Origin: an uncultured Phycisphaerae bacterium
GTDB lineage: Bacteria > Planctomycetota > Phycisphaerae > UBA1845 > Fen-1342
DNA length: 64,000 bases
Direction of reading: 5' to 3'
Assembly (NCBI GenBank): GCA_937928595.1
Contig: CALGJV010000027.1
Location: forward strand, 1 to 64,000
In this document: piece after piece, positions 24,918 to 31,639 of the stretch
Layout: each line of letters starts with the position of its first letter
How positions within the stretch are numbered: position 1 is the first letter of the stretch
The notes under the pieces: model-generated
Told to the model about the DNA's origin: nothing
The model's input: only the letters and a program-made list of their open reading frames with translations
Database searches by the model: none
Translations under genes and position numbers: made by a program

Positions 24918-25069
24918 GCGCTTCGTCCGTCCGAGCTGGAGCCGGAGCCGGGGGCATACGGTAACAAGGTCATGAAGTGACAAGGTGACAACGGTCGCAC
25001 GCCGGCGACCCAGCCGAACGCGAAGCGCCAGCGAGTGCGGACGTCGCGGCGCTGGCCGCCGCCGGCCGG

Positions 25070-25075
25070 TACAAT
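25070..25075 (+). promoter_or_regulatory. -10 hexamer TACAAT for the glycosyltransferase-like gene
   Basis: TACAAT in GGTACAATCCGCC, 28 nt before the ATG at 25104. Confidence 0.45.
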
Positions 25076-25103
25076 CCGCCGCGTCGCGTGGAGAAGCCGC
25101 CGC

Positions 25104-26201
25104 ATGACCCCGCTCGCGCCGGTCGTCATTCACGTCACCGCCGCCGATCTCGACCCCGCGCAGCGCGCGGTGCTCGAACGGCTTGCCGCGCCGCAGGACT
25201 CCTATGCCCACTACCTGTTCCACGTCGGCGGAGGCCGCGGTCCGCGCGTGCCGGGCCTCCCGGTGCAGCGCGTGCATGCCCCGTTCGACTGGCCCGTGCT
25301 CGGCGCCGGGCTTCTGCGTCGGGCGGTGCTGGCGCGCGTGCCCGCCGGTCCGCCCCGCATCGTCCACGTGTGGACGCGGGCCGCCGCCCGCAGGGCCGTC
25401 GGCCTGGCCGAGGACGCCGCGGCCATGCTGTTCGAGGTTCCTCCGACGCTGGACGCGGCCGGGCTGCGGACGTGGCTGTGCGACGTGCCGCTCGCCGCGG
25501 CCGCGCTGGCCTGCCCGCTCAGCGCGGTTCGCGCGCGGCTTGAAGCGCTGGGCGTGCCCCGGCGCCAGTGTCTGATCGTTCCGCCGCTCGTCGATGTCGC
25601 GGCGCTCGAGGCCGCCGACCGCGACGCTGCGCGGGCACGCTGCGGCTTGTCGAGCGGCGACACGGCAGTGCTGATTCTGCCGCCGATCGAGCGCGGCAGC
25701 GGGGCGTTCTACACGGCGTGGGCCGGCATGCTGGTGGAGAAAATCCGTCCCGACGTGCGACTGGTGCTCCCACTGGGATCGGCGGAAGGCAACCGCATCG
25801 GGCGCCTCGTGGCGGCCTGCGAGCACCGTTGGATGTTCCGGACCGTCGAACCCGACGTGTCCCTGCCCGAGCTGGTGACGGCCGCCGACCTCGCCGCGCA
25901 CCTCGCCCTCGGTCCCGTGCGGCCGTTCGGTCTGGCTGCGGCGCTCGCGGCGGGGCGGGCGCTGGTGGCGACGGACAACGCGGCGGTGCGGGAGCTGCGG
26001 GGCGATCGTGGGGCCGTATGGTGGTGCCGACCGCGGGACCCGAAGGACGCCGCTCGGGCACTTCTCGCGGCACTGGAGGCGCCGCCGGAGGCCCGCGTCG
26101 TGTCGGCCGTTGTAACCGCGGCTGCCCGGGAGACGTTCTTCCCTGCGGCGGTCCGGGCCGTCTACGCCGCGGCTTACGCCGAGCTGGCTGCCAGACGCTG
26201 A
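25104..26201 (+). CDS. Glycosyltransferase-like protein (GT-B type, uncertain)
   Basis: The protein has 365 residues and is rich in Ala, Arg and Val. The overall pattern fits a GT-B fold: N-terminal half with IVHVWTRAAARRAVG, a linker, then DTAVLILPPIERGSG and VTAADLAAHLALGPVRPFGL, which resembles the late region of family 4 glycosyltransferases (the part that usually carries the donor-binding Glu). FGLAAALAAGRALVATDNAAV fits the following helix. The expected EGFG-type Glu motif is changed to PFGL, so activity is uncertain. Convergent with the zinc-ribbon gene downstream. It could also be a distant relative without catalytic function. Confidence 0.65.
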   Translation: MTPLAPVVIHVTAADLDPAQRAVLERLAAPQDSYAHYLFHVGGGRGPRVPGLPVQRVHAPFDWPVLGAGLLRRAVLARVPAGPPRIVHVWTRAAARRAVGLAEDAAAMLFEVPPTLDAAGLRTWLCDVPLAAAALACPLSAVRARLEALGVPRRQCLIVPPLVDVAALEAADRDAARARCGLSSGDTAVLILPPIERGSGAFYTAWAGMLVEKIRPDVRLVLPLGSAEGNRIGRLVAACEHRWMFRTVEPDVSLPELVTAADLAAHLALGPVRPFGLAAALAAGRALVATDNAAVRELRGDRGAVWWCRPRDPKDAARALLAALEAPPEARVVSAVVTAAARETFFPAAVRAVYAAAYAELAARR

Positions 26202-26921: not shown

Positions 26922-28565
26922 TCAGGGGCGGTGCCACTCTTGACACCGGCCGCAAATTGCGAGCTCTTGCAACTCCAGCTTGGCGTGCCAGAGCCGGGCC
27001 TGGCGCAGTGCCGCCCCCTGCCAGATCGCCGCCAGCGGCTCCCGCGTCCAGTCCCCGATTCGAGTCTCCCCACCGACATCCTGCTCGCACAGCACCGCAG
27101 TCCCGTCGGCCAGCAGCATCATCCGCCGCCCGAGTCGCCGGCAGGGCTCCCGAATGGGTGGTTCGGTCCGCAAGAGTGTGTCCGGCGGCATTCGCCCCGC
27201 AAATTCGTTGTAGCCGCGGATTAGTGCCGTTCCGTGCCGGACGATAAACGCGTCGTGGAATGTCTCAAGCTCCGCCAGCGTCGCGCTGTGCCGGGTGAGA
27301 CTGCACACCAGGATCGGCCGCGGCGCCGAAGCGGTGCGGCGGCGTTCTTCGAGCCGGGCCAGGTTGGCCATGACACGGTCGAACGCATCGACCCCGTGGA
27401 TACGTTGGTAGGAAGCGGCGGACGTCGCGTCGAGGAGGACCTCCACCACGTCCACGGGGGCCGCGAAGAGCGCTTCGAACGCGGTTTCGGGCAACTCCAC
27501 CAGCGGCGTGGCCACGGCCAGACCGTAGACGCCGCCGGCCCGCAGCAGCCGGCACACGTCCGCGAAGTGCGGGTGGCAGAGGGGGTCGCCGTGCCCGCCG
27601 AGGCAGACCAGCCGGTCATCCCACGCCCCCAGTTCCGCGCCGAGGCGCTGAACCGCTTCCAGGTCTGACAACTCGCGCTTCGGTACGCGGGCGCCGCGCG
27701 GCCGCAACACGGTGTCGGGCAGCGGATCGGTGGTCGTGAGCTCGAGTTCAACCTCCTGCGGCAGGGCCGCCCAGGGGTCGCAGCGGCCGTCGCGCAGCCA
27801 GGCGCACAGGCGCGCTGCGTCGGCCTCATCCCCGAGTTCGGTCAGCGCCGCCGTGAGCAGCTCGAACGACGTTCTCGTATCCGCAGTGAGTCGGGCCGCG
27901 GTTTGTGCGATCTCGGGCGCGACGTGGCAACAGGCGGACAGGGTCAGCGGGTCGGGGTGGGCCATTTCCGGCCGGTACGACAGCATCAGTCCGATCGGCC
28001 AGTCGCCGCGCAGCAGGTCCACGAGCAGCGCTTCGCCGACCAGCACGCCGGCCAATCCGGGCGGTGCGGGGGTAAACGTGAACTTCGCGAGCTGGGCGTG
28101 CTCGACGTGGTGGGCGCACATCGCGGAAGCGAGGGTCGGATCGAGCAGGGGCTGGTGGCCGTCGCAACACAGCACGGCGTCGCAGCGATAGTGCTGGACG
28201 ATGCGGGCCAGCGTAGGGGGATCGGCGAACTCGTCGAACCAGCTCACGCCGAGCAGCCCGCCGCGCCACGACGCGAGGTTCCACTTGCGCGCCGCGCGGA
28301 TCAGCTCGCGCCGCGGGCGCAGTCCGGTGTCGAGCGTTTTGACCTCGAAGCTGTCGGCCAGGCCGGCGGTCCGGAGCAGCGCGCGGGCCGCGGTCTCATC
28401 GCGGGGTTGCACGCACAGACAGCGTCCGGCGGGTCCGTCGATGCGGGCGACGCGTTGGAGCGTGCGCACGAGGACCGGCGTGCCGGCGAGCGGCTCGGCC
28501 AGGCGCGCCGGCCCGCCCGGGTTGGCCTCGTGAAAGTCGGCGAGCACGGCGGCGACGATGTTCAT
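26922..28565 (-). CDS. SpsF-like nucleotidyltransferase fold fused to a degenerate radical SAM/SPASM domain
   Basis: The protein has 547 residues. Residues 1-250 resemble a SpsF/cytidylyltransferase-like GT-A fold (IVAAVLADFHEANPGGPARL, GTPVLVRTLQRVARI, HYRCDAVLCCDGHQPLLDP). From about 270 the chain follows radical SAM enzymes (LGGHGDPLCHPHFADV 322-337; VVEVLLDATSAASYQRIHG 373-391), but the place where CxxxCxxC should be (TTTDPLPDTVLRP, 277-289) has no cysteine. The end looks like a SPASM region with Cys475, Cys493, Cys538 and Cys541. The radical SAM cluster site is therefore probably lost. The gene begins with an ATGA overlap with the DUF115 gene upstream, so the two proteins likely act together, perhaps in surface glycosylation. 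Function is unproven. Confidence 0.78.
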   Translation of the reverse strand: MNIVAAVLADFHEANPGGPARLAEPLAGTPVLVRTLQRVARIDGPAGRCLCVQPRDETAARALLRTAGLADSFEVKTLDTGLRPRRELIRAARKWNLASWRGGLLGVSWFDEFADPPTLARIVQHYRCDAVLCCDGHQPLLDPTLASAMCAHHVEHAQLAKFTFTPAPPGLAGVLVGEALLVDLLRGDWPIGLMLSYRPEMAHPDPLTLSACCHVAPEIAQTAARLTADTRTSFELLTAALTELGDEADAARLCAWLRDGRCDPWAALPQEVELELTTTDPLPDTVLRPRGARVPKRELSDLEAVQRLGAELGAWDDRLVCLGGHGDPLCHPHFADVCRLLRAGGVYGLAVATPLVELPETAFEALFAAPVDVVEVLLDATSAASYQRIHGVDAFDRVMANLARLEERRRTASAPRPILVCSLTRHSATLAELETFHDAFIVRHGTALIRGYNEFAGRMPPDTLLRTEPPIREPCRRLGRRMMLLADGTAVLCEQDVGGETRIGDWTREPLAAIWQGAALRQARLWHAKLELQELAICGRCQEWHRP

Positions 28566-30544
28566 GCGGTCCGCTCCCGGACGCGCCGCAGGGCCTCGGG
28601 CAACAGCCCGAGGAGGTAGTCGCAGCCGTCGATGAGCGCGGCGACGTACTCGCGATCGCGGCGCAGCCGCCGCCGCGCCCGGGCAGGCGTCTCGCGCTCG
28701 TCGTCGCTGATCGTGCGGTCGGCCCGCACGCGCCGCAGCTCGGCCAACTGCGAGACATGGCTGACCAGTCCGTAGGTGCGGTCGTGCCGTCCCATCCGCA
28801 CGCGCAGCTCGTCGATGCGGGCGACACCGCGGTTGAAGTCCGCCGGGCGGTCCAGCAATCCGGCCAGCCGGTCCAGTTCCGCGAGGGTCTCGGTCGCGAT
28901 GGCGCGGATCTCGTGCAGCTCGCGGAGGCGGTCCTCCAGGGCCGCGCACGCGGATCGGGATGCCTCGGTCCCGGCCGGTCCGGGCGGGAGCGCAAACAGC
29001 CCCGGCGGCAACGGGCGCGCGCAGAACCGCTCCGCGGCCGCTCGGAGCGTCATGATTTCCGTCCCCTCCAGCGGGATCCCGCCCTCGCAGGCATGGATGA
29101 CGCGGGCCCGGCTTGCGAGGAAGTCGGCCTGAAACTGCTCGGCGTAGGTGAACATCTGGTCGTCGGTGTAGGCGGGCCGCCCGTGGATGTCGGTCACGCG
29201 CCGCAGCCCGCCGCGCATCCGCATGATGCGCTCCCACTGTTTTGTCTCAACCGTCATGAACCGCCCGAGCTCCGGCGCCCAGATCCGTTCGACCTGCATG
29301 CCGGGCGGGTAGTACAGGCCCTCCGTGAACGACAGGTCCTGGCCGACGAGGATGATCGGGTCGCAGCCGAGGTGCTGCGCGAGGTAGAACGAGAGATGGG
29401 CGACCGTGCTGCCCGCGGGCAGTGCGGCCCGGGCCGGCGCCGCCGCCTGGAGCAGATCGTCGGCGAACGGCGCGTGCAGGACGTGCGCGCGACCCCGGAA
29501 GGTGTCGAGCACATGCCACGTCACCTTCGGCTCGGCCACGAGGATGACGTCGCCGAAGTTCTCGACGCCGCGGAAGAACTGGGCCGAGATTTCGTGGTAA
29601 TCGAGGGCCGTGACGAAGTGCGGGGGCACGCCGCGCGACAGCATGAGCTTCAACACGGTCTGCACGCCGATCAGCACCGCCCGGTCCCGCAGTCCGGCGA
29701 GTTGATCGAAGTTGCGGGTCAGCGACGGCCCGGCCGCGACCAGGATCGCCGGGTAGCCTGCGGCCCGGTCCTTCAGGACCTCCACGCCGGGTTGCGACAG
29801 ATACGTTGGCAGGTTGAAGGCGATGTTCTTACACGTCACCCGCGCGTTGCGGAGCAGCGAATACATCTGCACGCGCGAGTACGACACGAAGTCGCGCACC
29901 AGGCTTCGCACGGCGGCGTGAAACCCGGCGTGCCAGCGCGTGGTATACGGCGCTGCGAGCAGCCGCAGCCCGAGCATGATGGCCGTTAGCGCCGGTCGCA
30001 GCCGCTCATGAACGGTCGCTTTGTCGGCGGAGGTGAGGAAGGTCAGCCGGCGCTCGCGGAGCGGCTTGGTGAAATCGGTCACGCAGAATGCGGCTTTCAG
30101 CACGCCCGGATCGTCTTCCGCGACCATGAGCAGGGGACGGGGGTAGCGGTCTTCCAGTTCCGCAACGACATAACCCAACCCGAGTCCGTGCACGAGGAAG
30201 CAGAGCCCCTCGGCTTCATCGTCGTCGTCGCCCGCGTTCGGCGCGGCCGCGTCGGAGTCCGGCGCGCGCTGCGCCTGCTGCGCGACGAGCGTCCGGGCCT
30301 CATCGCGGGGCCGGTAACGGCTGTGCGCGTAGATCGGCTGGCCGTCGTCCGCGCTCAGCCGCAGCGTGAGCAGTCCGTCGCGCGTGGGTTCCAGAGCCGG
30401 CGTTGCGGCGAACGGAAGCGCCTCAACGCGGGTGGCCAGGTCGGCGTCGACGGCGTACAGGGCGGCGAGGTTGTCCACGTAGCGCGCGCGGAAGTCCCCG
30501 AGCGGGGACGGCGGGACGGCGGCGGGTGACGAACCGGACGGCAT
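28562..30544 (-). CDS. DUF115 / Maf-like glycosyltransferase-type protein
   Basis: The protein has 660 residues. FLVHGLGLGYVVAEL (116-130) and the DUF115 core (about 230-440) with ILVAAGPSLTRNFDQL (267-282), TALDYHE and IILVGQDLSFTEG (397-409) match the 6-hydroxymethylpterin pyrophosphokinase MptE-like / motility accessory factor (Maf) family. Maf proteins glycosylate flagellin with nonulosonic acids in some bacteria. No flagellar gene is nearby. The ATG lies 10 nt after a minus-strand TACACT hexamer and has no ribosome site, so the mRNA may be leaderless. The stop overlaps the start of the SpsF-like gene (ATGA), a tight operon. Confidence 0.83.
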   Translation of the reverse strand: MPSGSSPAAVPPSPLGDFRARYVDNLAALYAVDADLATRVEALPFAATPALEPTRDGLLTLRLSADDGQPIYAHSRYRPRDEARTLVAQQAQRAPDSDAAAPNAGDDDDEAEGLCFLVHGLGLGYVVAELEDRYPRPLLMVAEDDPGVLKAAFCVTDFTKPLRERRLTFLTSADKATVHERLRPALTAIMLGLRLLAAPYTTRWHAGFHAAVRSLVRDFVSYSRVQMYSLLRNARVTCKNIAFNLPTYLSQPGVEVLKDRAAGYPAILVAAGPSLTRNFDQLAGLRDRAVLIGVQTVLKLMLSRGVPPHFVTALDYHEISAQFFRGVENFGDVILVAEPKVTWHVLDTFRGRAHVLHAPFADDLLQAAAPARAALPAGSTVAHLSFYLAQHLGCDPIILVGQDLSFTEGLYYPPGMQVERIWAPELGRFMTVETKQWERIMRMRGGLRRVTDIHGRPAYTDDQMFTYAEQFQADFLASRARVIHACEGGIPLEGTEIMTLRAAAERFCARPLPPGLFALPPGPAGTEASRSACAALEDRLRELHEIRAIATETLAELDRLAGLLDRPADFNRGVARIDELRVRMGRHDRTYGLVSHVSQLAELRRVRADRTISDDERETPARARRRLRRDREYVAALIDGCDYLLGLLPEALRRVRERTA

Positions 30545-30833: not shown

Positions 30834-31121
30834 ATGACGCCGTCGGCTGCAGCCGAGTCGGTTCCGCGTGTGAGGAGCCGGTCCCGCAGCGGTGTGGCGA
30901 TGCCGCTGAACGCGGTCACGACGCCAGGGACGTACGTCTGCCACTGGAGCGGACACCTGCTGCGGGTGCCACCGGGCGGACTGGGGCGTGACGGGGTGCT
31001 CGGCGTGAACCTCGTCGGCAGCGAGCCGCTCGTCGTGACGAAGATCAGCGACGACCCGGATCTGCCGCTGTCGAAGGCCCGCGGCCTGGCGTGGTCGTTC
31101 GGACTGAACATCGGGTTCTGA
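30834..31121 (+). CDS. Small unknown protein, copy 1 of a tandem pair
   Basis: The protein has 95 residues. After an Arg/Ser-rich start, MPLNAVTTPGTYVCHWSGHL, LLRVPPGG and LVGSEPLVVTKISDDPDLPL form a conserved core shared with the next gene (31367-31639): GTYVCxWxGxLLRVPP and EPLxVTxISDDPxLPL. No signal peptide or metal site. GAGGAG (30821-30826) gives a good ribosome site 7 nt before the ATG. I do not recognise the family. The single conserved Cys and Trp and the ISDDP loop are the features to search with. Confidence 0.7.
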   Translation: MTPSAAAESVPRVRSRSRSGVAMPLNAVTTPGTYVCHWSGHLLRVPPGGLGRDGVLGVNLVGSEPLVVTKISDDPDLPLSKARGLAWSFGLNIGF

Positions 31122-31366
31122 GCGCGACGTGGCGGGGGAGCGGGGTGACGTGCGGCGCCTGCGGCCGCGCGCTGCGCGCAGCCGTCCCGGGTTATCCCGG
31201 TGAGCCTCCGGCCTGATGACCGCGCGCACGCGCACGAGGCGGACGCGATACGAATCGACGGTTTTCGTTTGACGCGCAGGGTTTCGTGTGGAATTTTCAG
31301 TGCGGCGGAGGTGCGTGCCACTGGAGCCGAAGCGGTTGGCACGCGGGGCGGGCTGGAGGTGTCGCG

Positions 31367-31639
31367 ATGCGAGCGGCGACGGCGGAGAACGTGGAGCCCG
31401 GGGCCGGCGTGCCAGTGAGCATTCCGCTGGACGCGGTGTCCGGGGCGGGGACGTACGTGTGCAACTGGAACGGGCAACTCCTGCGCGTCCCGCCGGGGGC
31501 GGCGACGCCGCGGGGCCTCGCCATCAACATCGTGGGACGCGAGCCATTGTTTGTGACGCGGATTAGCGACGACCCGCGCCTGCCGCTCGAGCGGGCGCGC
31601 GCACGGGCGGCCGCGCTGCGACTCACGGTCGGTTTCTGA
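31367..31639 (+). CDS. Small unknown protein, copy 2 of a tandem pair
   Basis: The protein has 90 residues. GTYVCNWNGQLLRVPPG, INIVGREPLFVTRISDD and PRLPLERARARA match copy 1 closely (about half the positions of the core identical by eye), so this is a tandem duplication. GGAGGT (31355-31360) is 6 nt before the ATG, which fixes this start over an upstream ATG at 31286. The unit is unknown in function. The pair sits between a glycosylation-like operon and the DUF3352-like gene, but on the other strand. Confidence 0.7.
   Translation: MRAATAENVEPGAGVPVSIPLDAVSGAGTYVCNWNGQLLRVPPGAATPRGLAINIVGREPLFVTRISDDPRLPLERARARAAALRLTVGF

Follow-up and report, generated by a model that had tools for sequence, protein, structure and literature searches.

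What can a protein with a radical S-adenosylmethionine (SAM)/SPASM fold do when the CxxxCxxC motif of the SAM-cleaving cluster is missing? The question is raised by two overlapping genes, A and B, in a 64,000-nucleotide stretch of DNA from an uncultured Phycisphaerae bacterium (contig CALGJV010000027.1, positions 1 to 64,000; the whole stretch is hereafter called the window). The first-pass annotation of the window had read the pair as a possible glycosylation or surface-modification system that re-uses a radical SAM fold stripped of its cluster. The analysis reported here points to a Maf-type module for the O-glycosylation of flagellin with nonulosonate, in which B would be an obligate, probably non-catalytic pseudo-radical-SAM partner of A, a reading to which a probability of roughly 0.6 is given. 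It builds on computed folds, motif losses, the conserved pairing and the fusions of A and B, their co-occurrence with flagellin and the nonulosonate context, and adds to these, by inference, a transferase reaction, a physical complex, ligands for B and an absence of catalysis. The features of the locus are as follows.

28562..30544, minus strand: gene A, probable Maf-type (DUF115/MptE-like, PF01973) glycosyltransferase, 660 aa, from Pfam and the predicted fold
26922..28565, minus strand: gene B, 547 aa, SpsF/CMP-sugar-synthetase-like domain followed by a radical SAM/SPASM fold that lacks CxxxCxxC
27780..28565, minus strand: N-terminal domain of B, residues 1–262, cytidylyltransferase fold with an altered CTP loop (residues 10–21)
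26925..27779, minus strand: C-terminal part of B, residues 263–547, radical SAM barrel and SPASM, from fold comparison
27696..27761, minus strand: conserved loop of B, residues 269–290, at the CxxxCxxC site, from A3 alignment column counts
26940..27143, minus strand: SPASM segment of B, residues 475–542, with cysteines 475, 493, 538 and 541, from Pfam and A3 columns
28562..28565, minus strand: ATGA stop/start overlap of A and B, from the junction sequence

The stop codon of A overlaps the start codon of B (junction sequence ...GACCGCATGAACATC), so that both the ATGA overlap and, by Pfam, the DUF115 nature of the upstream partner were as first annotated. At almost all loci, A immediately precedes B, and the pair recurs in this order across the phylum, which indicates that the pairing is not a matter of chance.

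Absence of the cluster motif in the B family

B contains cysteines at positions 49, 51, 128, 133, 134, 150, 212, 213, 254, 262, 321, 330, 338, 421, 475, 493, 538 and 541, and none at residues 277–289. This is in agreement with the first-pass annotation, which had noted the cysteine-free site together with a remaining SPASM-like set (475, 493, 538 and 541); the latter falls within a Pfam SPASM match (PF13186) at residues 475–542 (E = 3e-8; 34.1 bits against a cut-off of 21.5). The Radical_SAM Pfam match at residues 296–408 stayed below threshold (24.6 bits against a gathering cut-off of 29.5). Searches of the phylum, the class and named genomes yielded about 100 full-length relatives of B, none of which contained CxxxCxxC. 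Two records carried other labels, Alphaproteobacteria and simply "bacterium"; the remaining relatives belonged to Planctomycetota. The profile for the genome scan was built from four sequences, an alignment of 13 sequences being too diverse for this purpose. Stand-alone radical SAM/SPASM proteins that the TIGR04321 profile picked up in this phylum contain CxxxCxxC, and in a tree of the shared region, made by a quick method with midpoint rooting and with the cluster columns left in, the motif-less B proteins and the CxxxCxxC proteins were split by a single branch (Shimodaira–Hasegawa-like approximate likelihood ratio test, 99). On these sequences, the loss of CxxxCxxC is a trait of the family and one change on the tree.

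The loop that replaces the motif is conserved and not decayed. In the A3 alignment of 39 sequences, P269, E271, E273, E275 and T277 were present in all 39, P289 in 38 and R288 in 32. CxxxCxxC was not found in any other reading frame across B, and a frameshift therefore cannot hide it; sequencing error or frameshift was rejected on this ground and on the agreement of the homologues. That B is the product of a sequencing error or a pseudogene has a negligible probability, as nothing except the missing motif speaks for it, while the same state is shared by ∼100 aligned sequences from independent genomes, the frames are open and the replacement loop is conserved. The two outcomes named beforehand as fatal to the first-pass annotation were close homologues with an intact motif plus signs of a local sequencing error, and the want of a structural match to a radical SAM barrel. 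No close homologue had the motif, no frameshift hid it, and a barrel was matched, as described below.

Predicted folds of B and the altered nucleotide motif

The AlphaFold2 model of B, computed with 39 sequences from the window and genome contigs, had a mean predicted local distance difference test score (pLDDT) of 92.9 and a predicted template modeling score (pTM) of 0.93. Residues 263–547 matched BtrN (4m7t) with a Z of 23.4 and a root-mean-square deviation (rmsd) of 2.7 over 234 aligned residues, confirming in the model the radical SAM barrel first suggested from the sequence; SuiB, anSME, MoaA, PqqE and viperin were among the other structural matches, and the barrel was likewise supported by Foldseek. 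B retains the glycine-rich segment GxG(D/E)P, the counterpart of the SAM-contacting GGE motif (G324 and G326 in 39 of 39 sequences, with D or E at position 327).

Residues 1–262 matched a Leptospira cytidylyltransferase (6oew; Z 21.6, rmsd 2.7, 215 aligned residues) and also KdsB and TarI. Separately from the structure comparison, hhalign tied this N-terminus to PseF-like enzymes (probability 94.8, E = 5e-8), the genes of which adjoin the pair in relatives and lie apart from it in the source genome. The SpsF-like N-terminus of the first-pass annotation is thus upheld, with the addition that its nucleotide motif is degenerate. The cytidine monophosphate (CMP)-sugar-synthetase motif ARxGSxRLPGK, intact in the neuA-like gene of the source genome, is gone from B, in which D10...G17, S20 and R21 are found instead, and the lysine of the cytidine triphosphate (CTP) loop is mostly exchanged for arginine in the family (A3 columns). 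The family carries a signature of its own, RKW..xWRGG..DE (residues 93–112), which is nearly invariant in the 39 diverse sequences. A sequence search of solved structures with B gave only spurious PARP2-type matches, and in a plasmid search the matches were all partial and confined to the radical SAM part of B.

SPASM cysteines and A–B fusions

The four SPASM cysteines were found in 39 of 39 sequences of A3 and are retained in most family members. At seven loci (L106–L111 and L140; families f2, f96 and f98), a single open frame of ∼1260–1480 codons holds A followed by B as a fusion, and all four SPASM cysteines are lost; WRGG..DE is retained even in these fused proteins. The unfused L125 also lacks the four cysteines, and L132 and L133 each lack one. 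A distinct, deeper-branching fusion (L016) has kept all four and is devoid of CxxxCxxC. As the cysteines are gone from seven fusions and from L125, the SPASM cluster cannot be essential to the core role of B. Judged from the alignments, the SPASM cysteines are dispensable in the fused lineages, a point beyond the first-pass annotation, and the degeneration of B reads as double, and in some lineages triple, affecting the SAM cluster, the CTP motif and then SPASM.

Gene A resembles Maf-type flagellin glycosyltransferases

Residues 240–408 of A constitute an MptE-like/DUF115 domain (PF01973; E = 8.6e-35, 120.5 bits against a gathering cut-off of 34.6), and A is the only DUF115 protein of the source genome. 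The AlphaFold2 model of A (pLDDT 86.4, pTM 0.81) matched the Magnetospirillum Maf structure 5mu5 with a Z of 23.9 over 545 aligned residues (rmsd 5.8), the runner-up having a Z of 15.6. Foldseek agreed (E = 8e-18), and CstII and mammalian sialyltransferases appeared further down the structural matches. The full-length Maf fold, with its N-terminal Rossmann-like, central and helical C-terminal domains, was recovered in the model; against the PseD model (NF050051), A scored 61.3 bits, under the curated cut-off of 670. According to published reports, Maf enzymes transfer nonulosonate to flagellin, or are needed for the transfer, in Aeromonas, Magnetospirillum and Clostridium (PMC4065374, PMC11339370, PMC7591256). 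Going by its modeled fold, A is probably a Maf-type flagellin glycosyltransferase that attaches sialic-acid-like sugars. At one locus (L044, 7651–8001), the DUF115 gene upstream of B seems to be split into frames, only the last part being recognized.

Co-occurrence and genomic context

In tables that cover one class and are uncorrected for phylogeny, B (counting strict hits and, in family f2, weak hits as well) occurred together with DUF115 in 204 of 397 sampled genomes, DUF115 alone in 6, B alone in 9 and neither in 178, and flagellin was found in 197 of the 200 genomes with strict B, while B was absent from 83 of the 86 genomes without flagellin. Three of the five genomes without B in the window's own order were also without flagellin. 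The source genome has four Flagellin_N hits, and its contig C31 carries flgK, fliW and two flagellin genes.

Nonulosonate genes adjoin the pair at 16 loci, namely, 9 of the 44 named loci, the six first-fetched fused loci and L114. They code for a PseF-like cytidylyltransferase, NeuB and NeuC, with NeuD once, and L106 has a NeuB frame. In the source genome, neuA-neuB-neuC lie on contig C25, away from the pair. A gene for a B12-binding radical SAM protein was found in the nonulosonate operon at L060, L064, L065 and L113, which represent three genomes (L113 is from the L065 genome). This gene lies directly downstream of the cytidylyltransferase gene in Sedimentisphaerales/Phycisphaerae, with the Radical_SAM domain intact in L065, the member tested, and its product may methylate or otherwise alter the sugar.

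Proposed role of the pair and alternative explanations

It is proposed that a cytoplasmic A–B module O-glycosylates flagellin with a nonulosonic acid of the sialic, legionaminic or pseudaminic type. A would take the CMP-activated nonulosonic acid and move the sugar to a serine or threonine of flagellin. B would derive from the joining of a CMP-sugar synthetase domain to a radical SAM/SPASM protein whose SAM-cleaving cluster was lost, and would most likely dispense with radical chemistry: as a subunit, it would bind the acceptor flagellin, the nucleotide sugar or both, for presentation to A. Flagellin may be held by the SPASM-type barrel, in the way that related enzymes hold their peptides, and the nucleotide sugar by the N-terminal domain; where the SPASM cluster is retained, its role would be structural. 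A physical complex of A and B is likely, since B is inherited with A, is often translationally coupled to it and is sometimes fused with it. Substrate binding is the simplest role for a protein in which both catalytic signatures are lost, and we infer that B is catalytically dead. More tentatively, and at somewhat less than even odds, this branch of flagellin glycosyltransferases would depend on B as a double pseudo-enzyme (CMP-sugar synthetase and radical SAM, both non-catalytic) that recognizes flagellin and the sugar donor, the SAM cluster having been lost first and the SPASM cluster then in the fusions, leaving a metal-free barrel as a binding module. The glycosylation system first suspected at this locus is thus supported by the match of A to Maf, the tracking of flagellin by the pair and the nonulosonate neighbors in part of the family; its context has become specific to flagellin and nonulosonate.

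Several observations weigh against this proposal. The co-occurrence of A, B and flagellin partly reflects shared ancestry. A few genomes, some of them incomplete, have B with no DUF115 detected, and three deep-branching loci from other classes (L144, L145 and L146) carry B with no DUF115 on the stretch examined. Members of the window's own family do not have the nonulosonate genes next to A–B. Moreover, R93, R101-G102-G103, R225, E271, E273 and E275 of B are invariant, which could mean an unknown active site. B might, then, be a new active enzyme whose divergent cytidylyltransferase-fold domain makes or alters the sugar for A, with the radical SAM-like part as a structural or binding platform. 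The persistence of RKW..xWRGG..DE across the 39 sequences, and of WRGG..DE in the cysteine-less fusions, would suit such an enzyme, as would the conservative nature of the lysine-to-arginine change in the CTP loop. However, the canonical ARxGSxRLPGK is gone, B has no Pfam CTP_transf_3 match and the source genome has a separate, intact PseF/NeuA-like enzyme beside neuB, which makes an active B unlikely, though still a serious competitor.

The remaining alternatives give the iron–sulfur chemistry a working role. The SPASM [4Fe-4S] cluster could pass electrons to another enzyme, e.g., a sugar-modifying B12 radical SAM protein; PapB is a documented case of intermolecular electron transfer via an auxiliary cluster (PMC10470005), the four cysteines are universal in A3 and a B12 radical SAM gene is present at the four loci mentioned above. 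Most loci are without such a gene, however, and the association of A with B persists where the cysteines are lost (the seven fusions and L125, and partly L132 and L133), so that this explanation is quite improbable. Even less credence is given to the idea that B is a genuine radical SAM enzyme whose cluster motif is non-standard and lies at another site: GxG(D/E)P is kept, but the SPASM cysteines are the only invariant ones, with no others conserved, and the seven fused members have no cluster cysteine at all. The non-catalytic partner of a Maf transferase is therefore the preferred reading of B.

The family provides a traceable case of a radical SAM fold re-used without its cluster, in a near one-to-one relation with a Maf glycosyltransferase and flagellin. 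It offers natural intermediates, in which SPASM is kept, eroding or lost, as well as natural fusions, and it makes two questions tractable, i.e., how Maf enzymes choose the flagellin acceptor and what a cluster-less radical SAM fold is able to do. It would be misleading to label B-type proteins SpsF or radical SAM enzymes.

Neighboring genes in the window

Two small paralogous open reading frames lie upstream of A on the opposite strand, at 30834–31121 (plus strand, 95 aa) and 31286–31639 (plus strand, 117 aa); they share a 77-nt core with 77% identity and the motif GTYVCxWxGxLLRVPPG. A weak relative of glycosyltransferase group 1, under the Pfam cut-offs, faces the A–B operon at 25035–26201 (plus strand) and was not found as a conserved neighbor of A–B in the neighborhood survey. 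The Aat, DnaK-like and FHA genes near the pair were regarded as unrelated neighbors outside the module.

Comparison with known systems

The best NCBIfam match of B was TIGR04321 (spiro-SPASM), with 119.3 bits against a curated cut-off of 250, a cut-off passed in none of 199 genomes of the phylum. B shares the SPASM end with this family, and the match is nearly full-length in deep-branching relatives (L002: profile positions 75–506 of 510, 158 bits). When two ordinary radical SAM proteins were rescored with cysteine changed to alanine, an indirect read-out of TIGR04321, its loss was ∼3 bits per CxxxCxxC cysteine versus ∼7.4 per SPASM cysteine; ordinary radical SAM models lost ∼6 bits per CxxxCxxC cysteine. 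The low weight on the CxxxCxxC cysteines suggests that some members of the TIGR04321 seed may have the motif and others not. At least one pseudo-SAM family is named in NCBIfam, TIGR04347 (pseudo_SAM_Halo), an annotation precedent for a radical SAM fold presumed to be inactive, and the pseudo-radical-SAM idea is therefore not new; by its family name only, TIGR04347 is set apart from B. The literature search gave no paper for spiro-SPASM and none under pseudo-rSAM wording, nor a description of the A–B pair or of obligate pairing or fusion with a Maf transferase. What may be new here, within the literature searched, is a pseudo-radical-SAM protein obligately paired and fused with a Maf transferase.

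BtrN, SuiB, anSME and other radical SAM/SPASM (twitch) enzymes have, like B, a barrel and a C-terminal cluster domain, but B is without their CxxxCxxC. The N-terminal fold is common to B and the CMP-sugar synthetases PseF, NeuA, KdsB and SpsF, from which B differs in its altered CTP loop and in RKW..xWRGG..DE, specific to the B family. The need of a flagellin glycosyltransferase for a flagellin-binding module has been described for Caulobacter FlmG (PMC7591256); FlmG, however, does not belong to the Mafs, and the flagellin-binding portion is a further domain of FlmG itself. A has the PF01973 domain and the complete fold of the Maf flagellin glycosyltransferases (Magnetospirillum 5mu5, Clostridium botulinum Maf and PseD), and the A module, like Maf systems, goes with flagellin and, in some family members, with nonulosonate genes. 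Excerpts of the Maf papers mention no pseudo-radical-SAM partner, whereas the A of the Phycisphaerae examined almost never occurs without B and is sometimes fused with it.

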